This document shows, in pieces, positions 7,953 to 27,908 of a stretch of 36,085 nt of DNA. The DNA is from Bacteroidales bacterium. GTDB lineage: Bacteria; Bacteroidota; Bacteroidia; Bacteroidales; UBA12077. Below the pieces are notes generated by a model. That model saw nothing but the letters and a program-made list of their open reading frames with translations, ran no database searches and was not told the origin of the DNA. The stretch lies in the NCBI GenBank assembly GCA_021740225.1, contig JAIPAF010000004.1, positions 1-36,085 of the forward strand. Direction: 5' to 3'. Every line of letters begins with the position of its first letter. Positions within the stretch are counted from its first letter, which is position 1. Both the position numbers and the translations under genes were made by a program.

Positions 7953-10900
7953 CTACTTAAACGCCTTCTCCAGCAGTCCGTCTCCGGAAAGTTTCAGCCT
8001 TTCGAAATAGTCGGGGATAGGTTTACCCATAAGCTTGTCCACATAAAGTTTGGCAAGGTACTGGCCAAGCATATATCCCTGGCCGCGCAGCCCCAGGAAA
8101 AGTCCCAGCTCAGGGTCGATCACCATCCGAGGCTCCACGTAATATCCGGCCCAAACGGCCTGGAACCCGACAGAAGACAACCTGGGAATCCAGTTGGTAA
8201 AAATCTCGGTGGCAATGTTCATGAAATCCAGCGAGTTGACCTTTAAATTTTTACCTGTTTCATTGGGCTCAACAGCGGGTGAAGCACAGCCGATCACCTG
8301 GCCGGTTTCAGCAAGCTGCTGACCATACACGGCAACAAAGCCTTTGTAATTTCTCCTGTCGATCATCATCGGCAGGTGATCGCCGTTCACACCCAGGTAG
8401 GGCAGCCTTCTGGTGATGAAAGCCTGGTGTTTCACCGGGAACAAGCCGGTTTCAATGCCCATCCTCCCTGCAAAAGCAGGACCTTCATGACCCAACGCAT
8501 TGACAAACACACCGGTTTGGTATTCCACATATTCCCTGTTGTGGTTCCGAACCAGCACTTTATATGTATCGCCCTCCTTTTGCACATCGATTACCCGGCA
8601 ATCCTCTTCAATGGTGCCGCCGAGCTTTTCGCCCAGGTGCCGGACCAGATCGAGTACCTTGCCCGGAGTCGACTGCCAGCAATTTCTGGCGACCAACGCG
8701 CCCTTATAGGTTTTCAGATTGGGATTGAAATAAGGGGAGAGCTCTTTTTGAAAATCCTTGGGCCCGATCATATAAGCATCAGACCATTCCATGGACTTCT
8801 CCAGGATTTTATAAATCTCATCGTTATGGGCAAAAGTGACATACCGGTTGGGCCGATAATCGACGTTGGCAATCTCCTGAAGTTCCCTAAAAATCCGGTT
8901 GTTGTTGTCAGCAATATCAGATAGCTCGGGCAGGCTGAAATTGGATCTGCCTCCTGCAATATTTCGCCAGGAGGAACCCCTGTTGCAGTTGACCAACACC
9001 GGTTCCTGACCCGCCTCTGCAAGGTAACGGAAAAGGGCGCTGCCTCCTATTCCGCCACCGGCAACCAACGACTGAACGCTTACCTTTTTTACCTTCCGGC
9101 CATTCGTAAAGGGTTGCACATTTTCATGAACCTCCCTTGGATAAAGCTCACCCATCGAAATCTGGTTTGCCATGGGGCCACGGGGTGTAGCCTCTCCTAC
9201 CAGAGATTTCCCGTATTTGGGCAATATTTGCTTCAGGCGCTTAACGCAACGCTTGCCACGACAAGACCCCATTCCCAGTCGCGTAGTGTGTTTTACCTCA
9301 TCCACGCTGATGAACTTGCGTTCTCCAATGACCTCCAGTATATTCTTCAGCTTAACGTCATCACAATGGCAGATATACTGTTCCATTTCAAGATCACCCT
9401 CGTAAGACTCAAAATGTAGTGCTTCGGGATAGGATGTTTTGGCAAGGAAGCCCCGCACTTCCATAAGACTATCACCATGTAGATTGTCCGATTTCACCCG
9501 TGCAATATGGGTTTTGTTCGGCTTCCGCTGTATTTTCTCCACCCGGCCTTCACCAAGCTTCCTGCCGTGGTTGTCCACAAGATAAACCTCTCTCCCTTCC
9601 TCTGCCTCCATCTCTATGGGCAGAAAAACCCAATCTTTCTTCAGATTGTATCCGAAAATGGCCAGGCCGGGACACTGATACACGCACTGCATGCATCCCG
9701 TACATTTTTCATAATCAATCACGGGAACCGTGCCTGTTGACGACTTGGTAATGGCCCCGAAAGGGCACACAAACGCGCAGGGATTGCAGGCAAAACCATA
9801 CAGGCAATCAATAATCACAAACGGCTTTTTCTCCCTGCGTTCTTTCGAAGGCTTATAAGGCTCATCCAGAACCCTGACCGGCTCTTGCTGGGAATCAATA
9901 TATTCTTTGGAAACTTTCAGGTAATCGTTATAATGATATTTTTTCCCCATCTCATTAAGAATATCATAGGCCACCTGCTTTCCTCTCAGCACGGCACTGG
10001 TTCCCTCGCCAATGCGAATCGCATCACCCGCTCCGTGGCAATCCCTTCCGAATATTTCCTTGCCCTTGGAAAGCAATCCATCATCCGAAACCAAACCCGT
10101 ACATATATTGATGGCATCGATGTCTTCGATCACCTTTTCGGTGTCGGGGACAGGTTCAAAATTCTCAGATTCCGCAACCACCGCCCCGACAATGCCATCG
10201 TGGTTTTTATTGGGTATGGCTTTCAACAACTGATGAGAAGTGATTATGGGTATACCCAGCCGCCTAACCCGAGCTGCCTGGACCGGGAATCCCCCTTCAT
10301 CAGGCAAAGCCTCCAAAATGGCCTTCACATTGGCGCCAGCCTGTATCAGTTGGTAAGAAGTGAGATAACCAATATTTCCGGCTCCTACAGTCAAAACATT
10401 CTTCCCCAGCAAAGTACGTTCAAGGTTCATCATCTTCTGAACCACAGCGGCTGTATATACGCCCGGAACATCATCGTTTTCGAAAGGCGGCATAAAAGGT
10501 ACCGCACCGGTGGCCACAACCAGGTGACCGGCATCCACATAATAAACCTCTTCCGTCTTAATATTTTTTACTGCCAGGCGTTTTCCTTCCAGAATATCCC
10601 AAACAGTTGAGTTAAAAAAAATTCCGGTAAGATCCTCACCTGCAAGTTTTTTAGCTATATCAAACCCCCGCATTCCCCCAAATGTCTTTTCTTTCTCAAA
10701 GAAAAAAAACTGGTGGGTTTGCATGAGGAACTGTCCGCCAATCTTTTCATTGCTATCGATCACCAGATTATCAATATGATAATCGTCAAATATCACTCGT
10801 GCTGCCAGGCCAGCCGGACCGGCGCCTATAATGACCACATCTGTTTTGTATACATCATAAGCCTGACCGGTAGACACCACAGTTTGACGGGGTTCATAAT

Positions 10901-11186
10901 TAAGCGGTATTTTACGGATCTCGTTTACATGATCCACCGGTGTGATGCAAATCCTCCTTACTTCTCCGTCCACGATCATCTCGCAGGCACCACATTTCCC
11001 TATACCGCATTCCAGACTGCGGTTTCTCCCTTCCAGACTATATGAATGCACAGGAAACCCGGCCTGATGCAGAGCAGCTGCAATGGCAAGCCCTTTTTCA
11101 CAAGTGATGAGATGGCCTTCATAGGAAAAAGTAACGGTTTCTCTTTTGTCTATATCCAGAATGGGATGTCCTGTAATGGGATACAT
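7953..11186 (-). CDS. Multidomain FAD/iron-sulfur oxidoreductase fusion: 2Fe-2S (HcnA-like) + NAD(P)/FAD oxidoreductase (HcnB-like) + 2x[4Fe-4S] ferredoxin + BFD-like 2Fe-2S + DAO-type FAD oxidoreductase (HcnC-like)
   Basis: 1077 aa; CGIGKCGACEMIVDGEVRRIC; VVIIGAGPAGLAA; CNPCAFVCPFGAI and CTGCMQCVYQCP; YICHCDDVKLKNI...GMGSCRGKRC; VAGGGIGGSALFRYLAEAG and C-terminal DAO fold. Confidence 0.9.
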   Translation of the reverse strand: MYPITGHPILDIDKRETVTFSYEGHLITCEKGLAIAAALHQAGFPVHSYSLEGRNRSLECGIGKCGACEMIVDGEVRRICITPVDHVNEIRKIPLNYEPRQTVVSTGQAYDVYKTDVVIIGAGPAGLAARVIFDDYHIDNLVIDSNEKIGGQFLMQTHQFFFFEKEKTFGGMRGFDIAKKLAGEDLTGIFFNSTVWDILEGKRLAVKNIKTEEVYYVDAGHLVVATGAVPFMPPFENDDVPGVYTAAVVQKMMNLERTLLGKNVLTVGAGNIGYLTSYQLIQAGANVKAILEALPDEGGFPVQAARVRRLGIPIITSHQLLKAIPNKNHDGIVGAVVAESENFEPVPDTEKVIEDIDAINICTGLVSDDGLLSKGKEIFGRDCHGAGDAIRIGEGTSAVLRGKQVAYDILNEMGKKYHYNDYLKVSKEYIDSQQEPVRVLDEPYKPSKERREKKPFVIIDCLYGFACNPCAFVCPFGAITKSSTGTVPVIDYEKCTGCMQCVYQCPGLAIFGYNLKKDWVFLPIEMEAEEGREVYLVDNHGRKLGEGRVEKIQRKPNKTHIARVKSDNLHGDSLMEVRGFLAKTSYPEALHFESYEGDLEMEQYICHCDDVKLKNILEVIGERKFISVDEVKHTTRLGMGSCRGKRCVKRLKQILPKYGKSLVGEATPRGPMANQISMGELYPREVHENVQPFTNGRKVKKVSVQSLVAGGGIGGSALFRYLAEAGQEPVLVNCNRGSSWRNIAGGRSNFSLPELSDIADNNNRIFRELQEIANVDYRPNRYVTFAHNDEIYKILEKSMEWSDAYMIGPKDFQKELSPYFNPNLKTYKGALVARNCWQSTPGKVLDLVRHLGEKLGGTIEEDCRVIDVQKEGDTYKVLVRNHNREYVEYQTGVFVNALGHEGPAFAGRMGIETGLFPVKHQAFITRRLPYLGVNGDHLPMMIDRRNYKGFVAVYGQQLAETGQVIGCASPAVEPNETGKNLKVNSLDFMNIATEIFTNWIPRLSSVGFQAVWAGYYVEPRMVIDPELGLFLGLRGQGYMLGQYLAKLYVDKLMGKPIPDYFERLKLSGDGLLEKAFK

Positions 11187-21752: not shown

Positions 21753-22625
21753 TTACAGACCAAACAAACCACCCCCGGCCTTTCTCTTAATTCTCCTGAA
21801 ATCTCTTTTCAAAAAACCATCGGGTCTTCTTCCTTTTTTTATAATATGATAATCAAAATAATAAATCTTAGCATCTTTCGCTCCCATCAATATTTTATAG
21901 CACCGTTCTCTGTAGCGAGAACCTTGAGGCCCAACTTTATGTAAAAACACCACCTTCTCTCGCTCGTCTTTAATGGCCTGTTTCACCTCCCCCCTGGTTA
22001 CCAGCTTAAAATCATAGGGATAATACTCTTTGATCTTTTCTCTAGTGTTTACATCTTCTGCCAATTCATCCTCAATCAGGTAAAGCGTTTTATCCTTAAT
22101 ATCCTCCAGATTTTTATTGTAATAGTCTAAGTCTTCATCAACAATATCCGGATTCTCCTTCATGTTTTTTACATGGTTCTGCATAAATCTTATTATAACA
22201 TCCATTTTGTAGACCCAGGATTCCTCATCCACCTTCCGGTAAGAAAGTGGAAAGGCGCATAGTGAAGGCATCTCCTTCAAATCATCTTCCCCATCTCCTT
22301 TTAAAAGACTTAGAAAACGGTATCGTACTTTTGTTTTATCTCTCTCAAAAACAACAAGATTCGAAATTAAAAAGAAATTATCCGGATTATTTTTCTTCTC
22401 TTCGAATTCATTGCGCTCTATAAATTCATAATCACCTATATGCCAATTAGTTTTTACAGCCTCTTTTAGTTTGATATTATAGGTGGAGGTAGGATTGGGA
22501 TCTAAAACGATGTAAGTTTCGGTATCAAAAAACTCATTCAATTCCTGAACAGTTGGAGCCTCATGCTGTGCGAATGCACTAAAAGAAAAGATTATAAGGA
22601 TTACAAAAAACAGAATCTTCTTCAT
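21753..22625 (-). CDS. Exported protein of unknown function, 290 aa
   Basis: Signal peptide MKKILFFVILIIFSFSAFAQ; long ORF with normal codon use; no recognised catalytic motif; strongly basic C-terminus (IIKKGRRPDGFLKRDFRRIKRKAGGG). Confidence 0.8.
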   Translation of the reverse strand: MKKILFFVILIIFSFSAFAQHEAPTVQELNEFFDTETYIVLDPNPTSTYNIKLKEAVKTNWHIGDYEFIERNEFEEKKNNPDNFFLISNLVVFERDKTKVRYRFLSLLKGDGEDDLKEMPSLCAFPLSYRKVDEESWVYKMDVIIRFMQNHVKNMKENPDIVDEDLDYYNKNLEDIKDKTLYLIEDELAEDVNTREKIKEYYPYDFKLVTRGEVKQAIKDEREKVVFLHKVGPQGSRYRERCYKILMGAKDAKIYYFDYHIIKKGRRPDGFLKRDFRRIKRKAGGGLFGL

Positions 22626-22807: not shown

Positions 22808-24520
22808 ATGAAGGTTTTTTACAAAATATTTAAATTCCTCAATGCAGACAATTACCTTGTTGAAAATAAAGAATTTAACCACCAACTTTTCATAAATATT
22901 CTTTCCATCTTTCCACTGATATTGCTATGTACGGTTACACTTAATATGATATTGGAATCCGGAATCAGGACTGTAATCATTTTTAACTTACTGGCTGTGT
23001 TATTATTGGGGACAAATTTGATCATACACAATAACCATAAAAATGATAAATCAGCATTTACAGGCAACTTTCTGTTATTAATCATTTCGGTATATTTCTT
23101 ATCGGCTCTGGGTACAGGGACAATTCAGGGGGGAAATGTTCTGTGGTGCACCACCTATCCCATTGTAGCCTTGTTATCCACTAAAAGAAAGGCCAACCTT
23201 TTTTCCTTTTTGTTTCTTTTAATCATTCTTGTTTCCCCTGTATTCTTACCTTTTCCCATATTCACTCAGCCTTTGGCTTTGGATACGGGCAGGATTGCCT
23301 TTTCAACAGTTTATATAGCAAATTTTTCAATTGTTTATCTGATGATTAAAGGCATTTATAATACGGGAAGAAAAAAAGACACCAGAATCTATCAGTTACA
23401 GGATGAGTTAAAAGATAAAGAAGAGTTCATATCCAAAGTATCCTATCAAATCCGCACCTCACTCAATAATATCGTTGTGGTTTCCAATATGCTTAATACT
23501 TCTGAATTGGACGAACAGAAAAAAGATTACTTCGATACCATTCTGGCATCTACCAATAATTTAGTTGACATGGTCAACAGCTTTTCAGAAATCACCAATG
23601 TAGATGTTCCGGAGCGAAAAAAAAACCAGATAAGGTTTGACCTCAATAGTACCTTACAAAACACCAAGAATCTTTTCGTTATTAAAGAAATCGATAATAA
23701 GAAACATCCCATACGTATCTATTCAGATATAGATTATCCGCTGATCGGCGATCCAGTTAAGGTAAAACAGATCTTTCTGAATCTAATCGAACAAATTTTA
23801 AAACTTTCACGAACCAAACAAATCGAGATCAATCTATACACCAAACAATCCGTTACGGAAAACTCATCGGTAGATATACTTTTTGAACTTTCCACCACGA
23901 GTCTTCAGCAAATTAACAAAGAGATCAGGCTCCGGGACAGATCACAGACTTTTAAAACCAAAAAGGTAATAGATAAACTTGGGTTGCACATAGCAAAACG
24001 AACCATTGAATCTTTAGGGGGAGAGCTTAAGATAGAGATTCAACCGGAAAAATATAATTTCCAGTTTACCCTCAAATTTAAGAAGGCGCTGGAACCGGAG
24101 AAGAAAGAAAATACAAAAATAGCCCCAAGTAGTGAAAGTAAGATCAACCTCAAGAATGCCAATGTGCTTCTGGTAGAAGATAACATGATCAATCAAAAAA
24201 TCGTAGTACTGAGCCTTAAGAATTCCGTTAAAAATGTAGATGTAGCCAATAATGGAAAAGAAGCATTGGATAAATTCGGTTCAGTAAAATACGACATTAT
24301 ACTAATGGATATCCAGTTGCCTGTTATGAATGGAATTGTTACAACTAAAAAAATTAGGAATATCGAAAAAAGCACGAACACCCACACTCCCATCATTGCC
24401 ATAACAGCTTATGCTTTAATGGGTGACAAGGAAGAATGTTTGGCTGCAGGAACCGATGACTATATAAGCAAACCATTCCAAATAGAAACGTTGCTGGAAA
24501 AAATGAACAATTTATTGTGA
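22808..24520 (+). CDS. Membrane hybrid histidine kinase-like protein with apparently degenerate kinase core and intact receiver domain
   Basis: 570 aa; multiple N-terminal TM helices; HisKA-like KVSYQIRTSLNNIV with Tyr in place of His (TAT at 23444-23446); HATPase-like region with non-canonical N box; C-terminal REC LLVEDNMINQKI...IILMDIQLPVMNG...IIAITAYAL...ISKPF. Confidence 0.88.
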   Translation: MKVFYKIFKFLNADNYLVENKEFNHQLFINILSIFPLILLCTVTLNMILESGIRTVIIFNLLAVLLLGTNLIIHNNHKNDKSAFTGNFLLLIISVYFLSALGTGTIQGGNVLWCTTYPIVALLSTKRKANLFSFLFLLIILVSPVFLPFPIFTQPLALDTGRIAFSTVYIANFSIVYLMIKGIYNTGRKKDTRIYQLQDELKDKEEFISKVSYQIRTSLNNIVVVSNMLNTSELDEQKKDYFDTILASTNNLVDMVNSFSEITNVDVPERKKNQIRFDLNSTLQNTKNLFVIKEIDNKKHPIRIYSDIDYPLIGDPVKVKQIFLNLIEQILKLSRTKQIEINLYTKQSVTENSSVDILFELSTTSLQQINKEIRLRDRSQTFKTKKVIDKLGLHIAKRTIESLGGELKIEIQPEKYNFQFTLKFKKALEPEKKENTKIAPSSESKINLKNANVLLVEDNMINQKIVVLSLKNSVKNVDVANNGKEALDKFGSVKYDIILMDIQLPVMNGIVTTKKIRNIEKSTNTHTPIIAITAYALMGDKEECLAAGTDDYISKPFQIETLLEKMNNLL

Positions 24521-24569: not shown

Positions 24570-27500
24570 TTATTCAGCTAAGGTTTGGGGGTTAAAGCCC
24601 ACTATCAATATGTCGTCTACCTGTTCCTGATCCTTCATCCAATCTTCAATGCTCTTTTCCAGGTAATATTTTTGCTGCACCACTGGCAGTTTATGAATGT
24701 TTAACAATAAGTGACGAAATCTCCTATATTTATACTTTTTCCCTTCAGGACCCCCAAATTGGTCGGCATATCCATCGGTAAACAAATAGATCATATCGTG
24801 ATCCGTGAGTGAAAATTTGCTTTTGGTAATCTCTGTGGCGTCCATTAATTCTTCATGCAATCCCACGGAGAAACGATCTCCTTTTACTTCTTCTATTTTA
24901 TTGTCGCGAAGCAGGTACATCGGACGAAATGCACCGGCGAATTCCAATTCTCTTTTCTTCTTATCTACTACACAAAGGGCAATATCCATCCCATCACGTA
25001 TAGACCGAGTCTTATCCTCTTCCTGCGATAAAGCCGTGAAAATTGCCTTATTCATTTCATAAAGGATATTTCCCACTTCAGTGATTCCCTGGTCATTGAC
25101 TATATGGTCGAACAATTCCACACCAATAATAGACATAAAAGCTCCCGGTACACCGTGGCCGGTACAGTCAACCACCGCCAGGAAAAGCTTGTCATCCTTT
25201 TCATGTATCCAGTAAAAATCGCCACTCACAATATCTTTGGGCTTAAAAAGTATAAAGGAATTTTTTAGTAAATTGTTCAGGTCAGTATTGGAAGCCAAGA
25301 GAGCCTCCTGGATTCTCTTGGCATATAAAAGGCTATCTGTAATACTTTTATTTTTATTTGTTAATTCTTCTTTTTGTTTGGCGATCTGTTGTGCGAATCT
25401 TTCCCGTTCTTTCCGTTGTTGTTTTTTCTTTTTCAATCTTTTGTTTCTCCAATGGAAGATCAATACCAGTAAAGAAATGCTTAAACCCCCATAGATAAGC
25501 AACGCGAGATCACTTTGCCAATAAGGAGTTTCAACTATAATATGAAGCGAGGTGCCTTTGTCATTCCAAATGTTATCATTATTCGAACCCTTTACTCTGA
25601 AAGTATATTCTCCCGGAGCTAAATTTGAAAAAGTGGCATATCTTCTGTTTCCGATATTTACCCATTCATTCTCCACACCTTCAAGCCTATAGGCATATTT
25701 ATTCTGCGAAGGTTGCATAAGGTCCAAGGAAACAAACTCTATGGTGATAAGATTATTCTTATAAGAAATAGTCAGGCTGTCGGTGGCTAACAGGTCATGG
25801 GTTCTTTTCTCTTGATTGGTAACCATTTCAACTGAAGTAATCTCTATATTGGGAATAGTGGTATCCCTCCGAATGGAATCGGGATAGAAAGAGTTTAAGC
25901 CAGAGATTCCCCCGAAAAACATTTCACCGTCACTGGCCTTATAAGCAGCAAGATGGTTAAATTCATAGGCCTGAAGCCCATCGTAAATATCAAAATTCAA
26001 AAAAATCTCTGAAACAGGATCAAATTTGGTAATTCCCATATTTGAGCTTAACCATAAATTACCGTTATCATCTTCAAGAATGGCGTATATCAAGTTATTG
26101 GGCAGACCGTCCTGCTCAGTATAGGTTTTAAACTCTTCGTTCCGGGGATTAAACCGATTAAGACCACCAACTGTTCCAATCCATATATAACCAGCGGAAT
26201 CCTCATGTAAACATAAAACTTCATTGCTTGCCAAGCAATTATGGCAAGCAAGCGACTTTTTTCTGAACTGTTTAAAACCTTTACCGGAACCCAGATATTT
26301 ATTAAAACCTTTATTTGTTGCCACCCAAAGGGTATCATTACTATCAATCATGACATCATATACCAGACTGGAAGTCAAAGAATTTGTGTCATTACTATTG
26401 CCGTAAAAACTTCTCATATCCCCTTCAGCATAAACGTGAAGACCTTTTCGTGTTCCGAACCAGAGTCTGCCTGATTGATCTTCATCAATAGAATATATCC
26501 TGTTGTCGGTGAAAATTTTCTGTAAATGCGAAGGTTCAATAAAATGAAAAGAGCGGGTCTTTAAATCGTAATACGAGACACCCTGGTCTGTCCCTATCCA
26601 TAGCCGGTTCCGACTATCCGGAAACAGCGTATGCACATCATTGCCGGGTATATAGGGCGATTGCCGGATAAATCTTTCCATTCTGAATGTTTCTCTATCA
26701 AGCCTATATAATCCTTTATTCCATGTACCAACCCAAATCCTGTTATATTTATCTTTATAAACAGAAGCGATAAGGTTATCGGCAAACAGTGGCTGATTAT
26801 CATCGTCTTTCTTATAAAGTCTGAAATCTTTCAGATTTTTCTGTAATTTTACTAAACCCTGTAAAGTACCAACCCATATTATATTAGAAGTAAAGCAGCT
26901 GATTTTGTTAATTTGTATGTCCGTTAATCTTGAAGAATTATGCAATAAATTGTCAGGATCTTCAAACTTACCTTCACCGGGTTTAAATAAATAGAGACCT
27001 GCTTCGGTTCCTACCCAAAACAGGCCTTCTTTGTCAATACATATATCATTGATGTTGTTAACATCATGGTATATATTCATGGTATCTACATAATACCGCT
27101 TAAAATCACCGGTATTCCTGTTAAATTTATTAAGTCCTGCATCCGTTCCAATCCAAAGATTCCCGCTGTTATCCTCATAGATCACCTGAATTTTGCTATT
27201 GGTCAACGATTGTTTATCAGAGGAATCATATTTATATCTGTTAAACTCCCCGAGCGCTTCATTAAAATAATTCAATCCATTATTTGTGCCTACCCAAAGC
27301 CTATCCTGATGATCTCTCAAGATGGCAAAATTGTTATCGGCTTCATAATAATTAAAATAATCCCCGGGATACTTGTAACTGGTAAAATTATTTGTTTCCG
27401 GTGCATAACACGTAAGATAACGACTGGTTTGAATCCATATAGAACCCTCATCATCCTGATATAAATTGAACACAGGATTTTCAGGAATGCTATTGCGCAT

Positions 27501-27908
27501 TGAATCAGCCAGAAAAACTTCGAATTCTCCATTGACCGGATCATACCTATTCAATCCATAATTTGTGGCTATCCACAAAAGGCCCTTCTCCGATTCGATA
27601 ATGTCATTAATGTAGTTATGGGATAAGGAATTGGTATCAGTAGGTTTGTTTTTAAACGTCTTAAATTTATAGCCATCGAATCGATTAAGACCATCCTGCG
27701 TTCCAATCCATAGAAACCCACGTTTATCCTTCATGAAACAGGTAACGCTCGATTGAGAAAGTCCCTGATTGACGTTAAAATTGGTGGAGTGGATTATCTG
27801 TGCATAATTAAAGTTAAGCCCTGCTAAAGTCAATAAAATTACCAAACAGAAATTTCTTAATGTCCTATGTAATGAATGATATTTTCTGAATTGTGCAAAA
27901 ACCAACAT
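24570..27908 (-). CDS. Two-component-regulator-propeller sensor with Y_Y_Y domain, TM helix, coiled coil and SpoIIE/PP2C phosphatase output
   Basis: 1112 aa; about 13 repeats of the (L/I)W(I/V)GTxxGLxxF type; Y_Y_Y-like [61 protein letters not shown]; SpoIIE motifs [35 protein letters not shown] and [20 protein letters not shown]. Confidence 0.93.
   Translation of the reverse strand: [1112 protein letters not shown]

Follow-up and report, generated by a model that had tools for sequence, protein, structure and literature searches.

A family of Bacteroidales membrane hybrid histidine kinases without G1 and G2 boxes and with an intact receiver domain

The locus and its neighbours

The window, that is the whole stretch of 36,085 nt of a Bacteroidales bacterium analysed here (contig JAIPAF010000004.1, assembly GCA_021740225.1), carries a gene for a membrane hybrid kinase of 570 aa that is predicted to be kinase-dead (Table 1). 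About 5–6 transmembrane helices, judged from hydropathy and an AlphaFold model, are followed by a DHp domain, an ATPase-like (CA) domain and a receiver. The DHp domain is recognized by Pfam as HisKA with 36.4 bits (cut-off 26.9) and the receiver as Response_reg with 88.3 bits; HATPase_c reaches 21.2 bits and stays below its cut-off of 26.4. The full-length model is of moderate confidence (mean pLDDT 72, pTM 0.38) and was used for topology only. A model of the DHp and CA domains, also of moderate confidence (pLDDT 76, pTM 0.73), has RetS (4.8e-13) and GacS (6.5e-13) among its top fold matches. Since both score about equally, the match is generic, and the model was dropped as a pointer to a specific relative. 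A reading of this gene from its sequence only (the sequence-only reading) had described the frame as open throughout and a simple frameshift as no explanation for its unusual motifs. We agree on both points: given the open frame, the intact receiver and the purifying selection described below, a frameshift or gene-decay artefact was rejected.

Table 1. Features of the predicted kinase-dead gene and its conserved neighbours in the window
Feature	Position	Strand	Basis or remark
F2, predicted secreted protein, 290 aa, conserved divergent neighbour	21753..22625	-	conserved gene order
Predicted kinase-dead hybrid sensor, protein P0001, 570 aa	22808..24520	+	open frame; orthologs found
N-terminal transmembrane region, residues about 20–180	22865..23347	+	hydropathy; AlphaFold helices
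DHp/HisKA-like domain, residues 200–263	23405..23596	+	Pfam HisKA over residues 204–262
Tyr213, codon TAT, phospho-acceptor position	23444..23446	+	His in 128/144 family members
Gln214 (H+1), replaces acidic residue required for kinase activity	23447..23449	+	PMC3510030 for role
Thr217 (H+4), HisKA phosphatase residue, retained	23456..23458	+	PMC3510030 for role
Degenerate CA/HATPase_c-like domain, residues 275–426, no G1 or G2 box	23630..24085	+	
Gln329, N-box Asn position	23792..23794	+	Gln in 5/5 genus members; Asn in 55/144 family members
Receiver domain, residues 450–568, catalytic residues intact	24155..24511	+	Pfam Response_reg
Asp501, phospho-acceptor of the receiver	24308..24310	+	144/144 in family
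Tyr535, two residues past receiver Thr; every close relative has Asn	24410..24412	+	lineage-specific change
Two-component propeller + Y_Y_Y + SpoIIE-type phosphatase, 1112 aa, conserved convergent neighbour	24570..27908	-	Pfam; gene order

The gene order, F2, the kinase-dead gene, a SpoIIE-type phosphatase gene and then eno, rplQ and rpoA, is conserved where examined. Because the directions of transcription are opposite, the kinase-dead gene and its neighbours do not constitute an operon. The SpoIIE-type gene is adjacent in 99 out of 144 family members, and in distant members the same position is taken by a short SpoIIE protein that lacks the propeller. F2 has no Pfam or NCBIfam match. Of 295 sampled Bacteroidales genomes, 109 encode a protein of this type, about 285 aa long; in relatives its gene often points away from the kinase-dead gene and adjoins a histidyl-tRNA-synthetase-like gene. 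F2 was rejected as an obligate partner, being present in 52 of the 58 family-bearing genomes but in 57 others too, counts that are uncorrected for shared ancestry. A second conserved predicted secreted protein, F28 (about 240 aa, no Pfam match; for instance at L045:7881-8582 (-)), separates F2 from the kinase-dead gene in many relatives, though not in the window. Elsewhere in the window, positions 7953-11186 (-) encode a single polypeptide of 1077 aa that joins 2Fe-2S, pyridine nucleotide-disulphide oxidoreductase, 4Fe-4S and BFD domains to a C-terminal DAO oxidoreductase, and ribosomal protein L17 (29733-30428 (-)) has an acidic low-complexity C-terminal extension of more than 100 aa past its Pfam domain.

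A Bacteroidales family without G boxes and with a conserved receiver

One best-scoring ortholog was found in each of 22 other searched genomes of the taxonomic family to which the window belongs, well apart in score from ordinary hybrid kinases, and further orthologs occur in many other Bacteroidales. Among the genomes sampled they are restricted to this order, and among 297 genomes sampled from the whole phylum the window itself was the only match. After removal of duplicates, 144 distinct members were aligned and placed in a tree with nine ordinary hybrid kinases as outgroup, from which they separate as a clade of their own (SH-aLRT 100); since the tree was built quickly and several of its branches are long, the deep order inside the family is uncertain. 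Most members come from metagenome-assembled genomes. Named isolates are Perlabentimonas gracilis (L097), with His at the phospho-acceptor position, and Saccharicrinis aurantiacus (L092), with Arg. One family member, L191 (G195 C144:7794-9134), is interrupted by several in-frame stops within the region that matched and is probably a decaying copy. In the openly licensed literature we found no account of this family.

The domain order is the same as in canonical HisKA hybrid kinases of Bacteroidales; the ATPase boxes are not. A G1 box (D-x-G-x-G) occurs in none of the 144 aligned members and neither does a strict G2 box, whereas the ordinary kinases keep G1 in 9/9, G2 in 8/9 and the N-box in 9/9 cases. 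A loose G-x-G-x-G is found in three of the 144 members, outside any recognizable box. As G1 and G2 are missing in the entire family and present in ordinary kinases, the loss of ATP use would most simply be ancient and date to the common ancestor of the family. In the window protein none of the N, G1 and G2 boxes of an active HisKA hybrid kinase was found. The absence of D-x-G-x-G and the Gln at the N-box Asn position (residue 329) had been recognized correctly before. The "GLGL-like remnant" KLGLHIA, however, is not a G2 box: aligned relatives read L-[DE]-[LFI]-x-I-A there, hence its "GL" is a chance match and a hidden G2 box (KLGL) is ruled out. An active kinase with an unconventional mode of ATP binding might be argued for from the fold, which appears retained in the structure model, and from an N-box Asn in 55 of the 144 members. 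As both G1 and G2 are missing, most members have a non-acidic H+1 residue and the window protein lacks the His, such a kinase is hardly credible.

Conservation within the family is highest in the receiver. The mean frequency of the major residue is 0.77 in the receiver, 0.60 in the DHp domain, 0.39 in the CA domain and 0.31 in the poorly conserved membrane region. The acidic pair, Asp, Thr and Lys expected of the receiver in an active hybrid kinase are all present in the window protein (E457/D458, D501, T533, K555), as had been claimed, and in the family E457, D458, D501 and K555 are found in 144/144 members each and T533 in 143/144. Thus, the earlier view of a pseudokinase scaffold carrying a functional receiver is supported at the sequence level in its main part, and for the whole family (no G1 in any of the 144 members; D458, D501 and K555 in all). 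Since this state holds family-wide, the natural reading is that phosphate would be received from elsewhere. The term "scaffold", however, is too weak, because most members keep the DHp His and/or the Thr at H+4, the residues on which phosphotransfer and phosphatase chemistry depend in other HisKA proteins.

The phospho-acceptor position and the residues beside it

Where an active HisKA hybrid kinase has the His of its H-box, the window protein indeed has Tyr213, within EFISKVSYQIRTSLNN. The alignment puts a His in exactly this column in 128 out of 144 members, which rules out a His elsewhere in the DHp helix. The remaining 16 members have Tyr (11, the window protein and ten others), Asn (2), Arg (2) or Phe (1). 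The nearest relative, a congener with 70% identity (L002), has His, encoded by CAT where the window has TAT. Conservation in orthologs had been proposed as a check for both Tyr213 and the missing ATP boxes; only the missing boxes are conserved (no G1 in 144 members), and the two do not form a single conserved pseudokinase trait. Orthologs with a normal His, which the same reading had named as evidence against itself, are the rule as far as Tyr213 is concerned. Unlike the loss of the ATPase, Tyr213 is, judged from the aligned sequences, a recent change. On the best tree the His was lost in about nine changes, at least four of them on supported branches. The SpoIIE-type neighbour is absent in 14 of the 16 non-His members versus 31 of the 128 His members (raw counts), but once relatedness is controlled too few independent pairs remain, and a tie between the two losses is therefore unsupported.

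The window gene shows eight unique changes at columns that are invariant among its relatives (H213Y, P218S, N535Y and five milder ones), compared to 0–3 in seven other members. This speaks against Tyr213 as a single sequencing error, and the eight changes hint at an altered constraint. They would also fit a gene that is decaying in the lineage of the window, with Tyr213 as an early inactivating mutation in a protein being lost. The receivers of non-His members point in the same direction, as they deviate at a median of 5 of 52 conserved columns versus 1 in His members, and so do the in-frame stops in one relative (G195). However, the frame is intact, all catalytic residues of the receiver are present, the gene order is conserved, Tyr-bearing clades persist, and dN/dS between the window gene (L001) and L002 amounts to 0.17 for the entire gene and to 0.036 for the receiver. 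For the Tyr-bearing genes L167/L169 it is 0.07 overall (with dS near saturation) and 0.032 in the receiver. By these ratios Tyr-bearing genes are still under purifying selection, and decay is quite improbable.

For CrdS and other HisKA kinases, Willett and Kirby demonstrated a division of labour in which only the kinase reaction depends on the acidic residue at H+1 and only the phosphatase reaction on the Thr/Asn at H+4 (PMC3510030). At H+1 of CrdS an E-to-Q exchange kills the kinase, and E-to-A keeps full phosphatase activity (PMC3510030). All nine ordinary Bacteroidales hybrid kinases have Glu at H+1. This is not the case in the kinase-dead family, in which the 128 His members have Gln (86), Lys (21) or Arg (12) in most cases, an acidic residue in only six, all Asp, and never Glu. 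The H+4 residue is Thr in 107 of the 128 His members and 12 of the 16 non-His members; 21 members, essentially one clade, have Glu instead and all of these keep the His (21/21). The commonest H-box motif, H-Q-x-R-T, looks, given the roles of both positions in CrdS, like a natural kinase-minus, phosphatase-plus signature. Compared with HExxT, the window protein keeps the Thr at H+4, with Gln at H+1 and Tyr for His. In CrdS the H371A variant retains most of the phosphatase activity, the half-life of CrdA~P being 2.6 min versus 0.7 min with the wild type and 53.5 min alone (PMC3510030). By analogy, Tyr for His need not abolish phosphatase function.

Known systems and possible function

Several characterized proteins share part of these features. 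RetS of Pseudomonas aeruginosa, the nearest precedent with a known mode of action, is a hybrid kinase with an HATPase domain without G-boxes that cannot autophosphorylate; its receiver takes phosphate from GacS and its HExxT motif dephosphorylates GacS (PMC5992135). The window protein resembles it as a membrane hybrid with a degenerate, G-box-less HATPase domain, Thr at H+4 and an intact receiver. However, RetS has two receivers and keeps both His and HExxT, whereas the window protein lacks the acidic H+1 residue and, in the window species, the His. The sensor of RetS is also different. With 72.5 bits for GacS and 65.7 bits for RetS, the scores argue against a specific sequence kinship to RetS.

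DivL of Caulobacter has, like the window protein, Tyr in place of the phospho-acceptor His; it lacks autokinase activity, contains PAS domains and retains weak binding of an ATP analogue (PMC4211667). In the Bacteroidales family, however, Tyr is a minority state and not the rule. DivL is not known to have a receiver. ChpT, Spo0B and PhyT derive from kinases and combine a DHp His that still functions with a degenerate CA domain; crystals of ChpT showed that it does not bind ATP (PMC3433190, PMC5898713). With Tyr213 the window protein does not conform to this type, but by sequence 128 of the 144 members would combine a DHp His with a CA domain that does not bind ATP. The family differs in its membrane sensor, its C-terminal receiver and the repeated loss of the His. 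A fusion to a receiver is not known for ChpT and Spo0B.

With moderate confidence, we favour a kinase-dead phosphatase and phosphate acceptor that would act on a putative partner, similar to RetS and with DivL-like Tyr variants, over a pure relay or a purely binding regulator. The common ancestor of this membrane hybrid family would have lost ATP-dependent autophosphorylation, and Asp501 of the receiver would accept phosphate from a partner kinase or phosphotransferase, whose existence we infer. Through the Thr at H+4 the DHp domain may dephosphorylate its own receiver or that of the partner, and where the His remains it may serve as a phosphotransfer site too, with the membrane sensor setting the balance of these activities. 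What the sequences show is the family, its lost and retained motifs and purifying selection; each biochemical step is inferred. In the window species the DHp domain with Tyr213 would no longer carry phosphate on a His, which would leave phosphatase activity or a DivL-like recognition of a phosphorylated receiver. Some findings do not fit easily. About 21 members, which form a clade, carry Glu instead of Thr at H+4, so phosphatase activity cannot be universal in the family. With 89% of members, the His is retained more often than expected if the proteins were purely phosphatases, and for PleC, as quoted in PMC3510030, the His is required for phosphatase activity. Moreover, packing of the DHp helices could partly explain the conservation of His and Thr.

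The persistence of the His in 128 of 144 members despite a lost ATPase in all of them might rather indicate the middle piece of a phosphorelay, in which the degenerate kinase half, joined to its own receiver, would have turned into a histidine phosphotransferase comparable to Spo0B, ChpT or PhyT and would move phosphate Asp-to-His or His-to-Asp between other proteins; in the window species this role would have been lost with the change to Tyr. ChpT and PhyT show that a kinase with a degenerate ATPase domain can give rise to a phosphotransferase (PMC3433190, PMC5898713), and the clade with Glu at H+4, devoid of the phosphatase residue, has the His without exception. Hpt domains were detected in 32 of 39 genomes searched, many of which have Hpt proteins of stand-alone size, and none was found in the incomplete assembly of the window's own genome; as such domains are common in these genomes, phosphorelay partners are plausible. 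However, the His was lost repeatedly while the receiver stayed intact and the genes remained under purifying selection, so a relay through the His is not indispensable, and most members retain the phosphatase residue. We regard a pure relay as possible but rather unlikely. A non-catalytic regulator similar to DivL or RetS, the dead half of which would only bind a phosphorylated receiver or, as a heterodimer, a partner kinase and so alter the activity of the partner, appears less probable still. DivL, with its Tyr and neither kinase nor phosphatase activity, binds DivK~P (PMC4211667), RetS directly inhibits GacS autophosphorylation (PMC5992135), Tyr replaces the His more often than any other residue (in 11 of the 16 non-His members), and RetS and GacS are among the best fold matches of the predicted DHp-CA structure. 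Yet this fold match does not distinguish between RetS and GacS, and Tyr is one transition away from His, so its frequency could reflect mutational bias. For most members, the invariant receiver chemistry and the retained Thr at H+4 indicate phosphate chemistry.

The best-studied dead histidine kinases, DivL, RetS, ChpT and Spo0B, are from Proteobacteria and Firmicutes. In Bacteroidales there is a whole syntenic family without ATP use, the receiver of which is strongly constrained. Only tentatively, this may be extended to an order-wide scenario, in which ATP use was lost once, a phosphorylatable receiver and a kinase-minus, phosphatase-plus H-box (H-Q-x-R-T) were kept and the His was repeatedly replaced by a non-carrying residue, mostly Tyr. 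If true, this would be a natural replicated experiment in the conversion of a kinase into a phosphate sink or sensor, and the family might work together with the neighbouring SpoIIE-type phosphatase. As the cultured isolate Perlabentimonas gracilis has a homologue, the family is open to experiment. Because the His was lost repeatedly, mostly to Tyr, nature offers replicates in which the importance of the phospho-acceptor can be studied after loss of the kinase.
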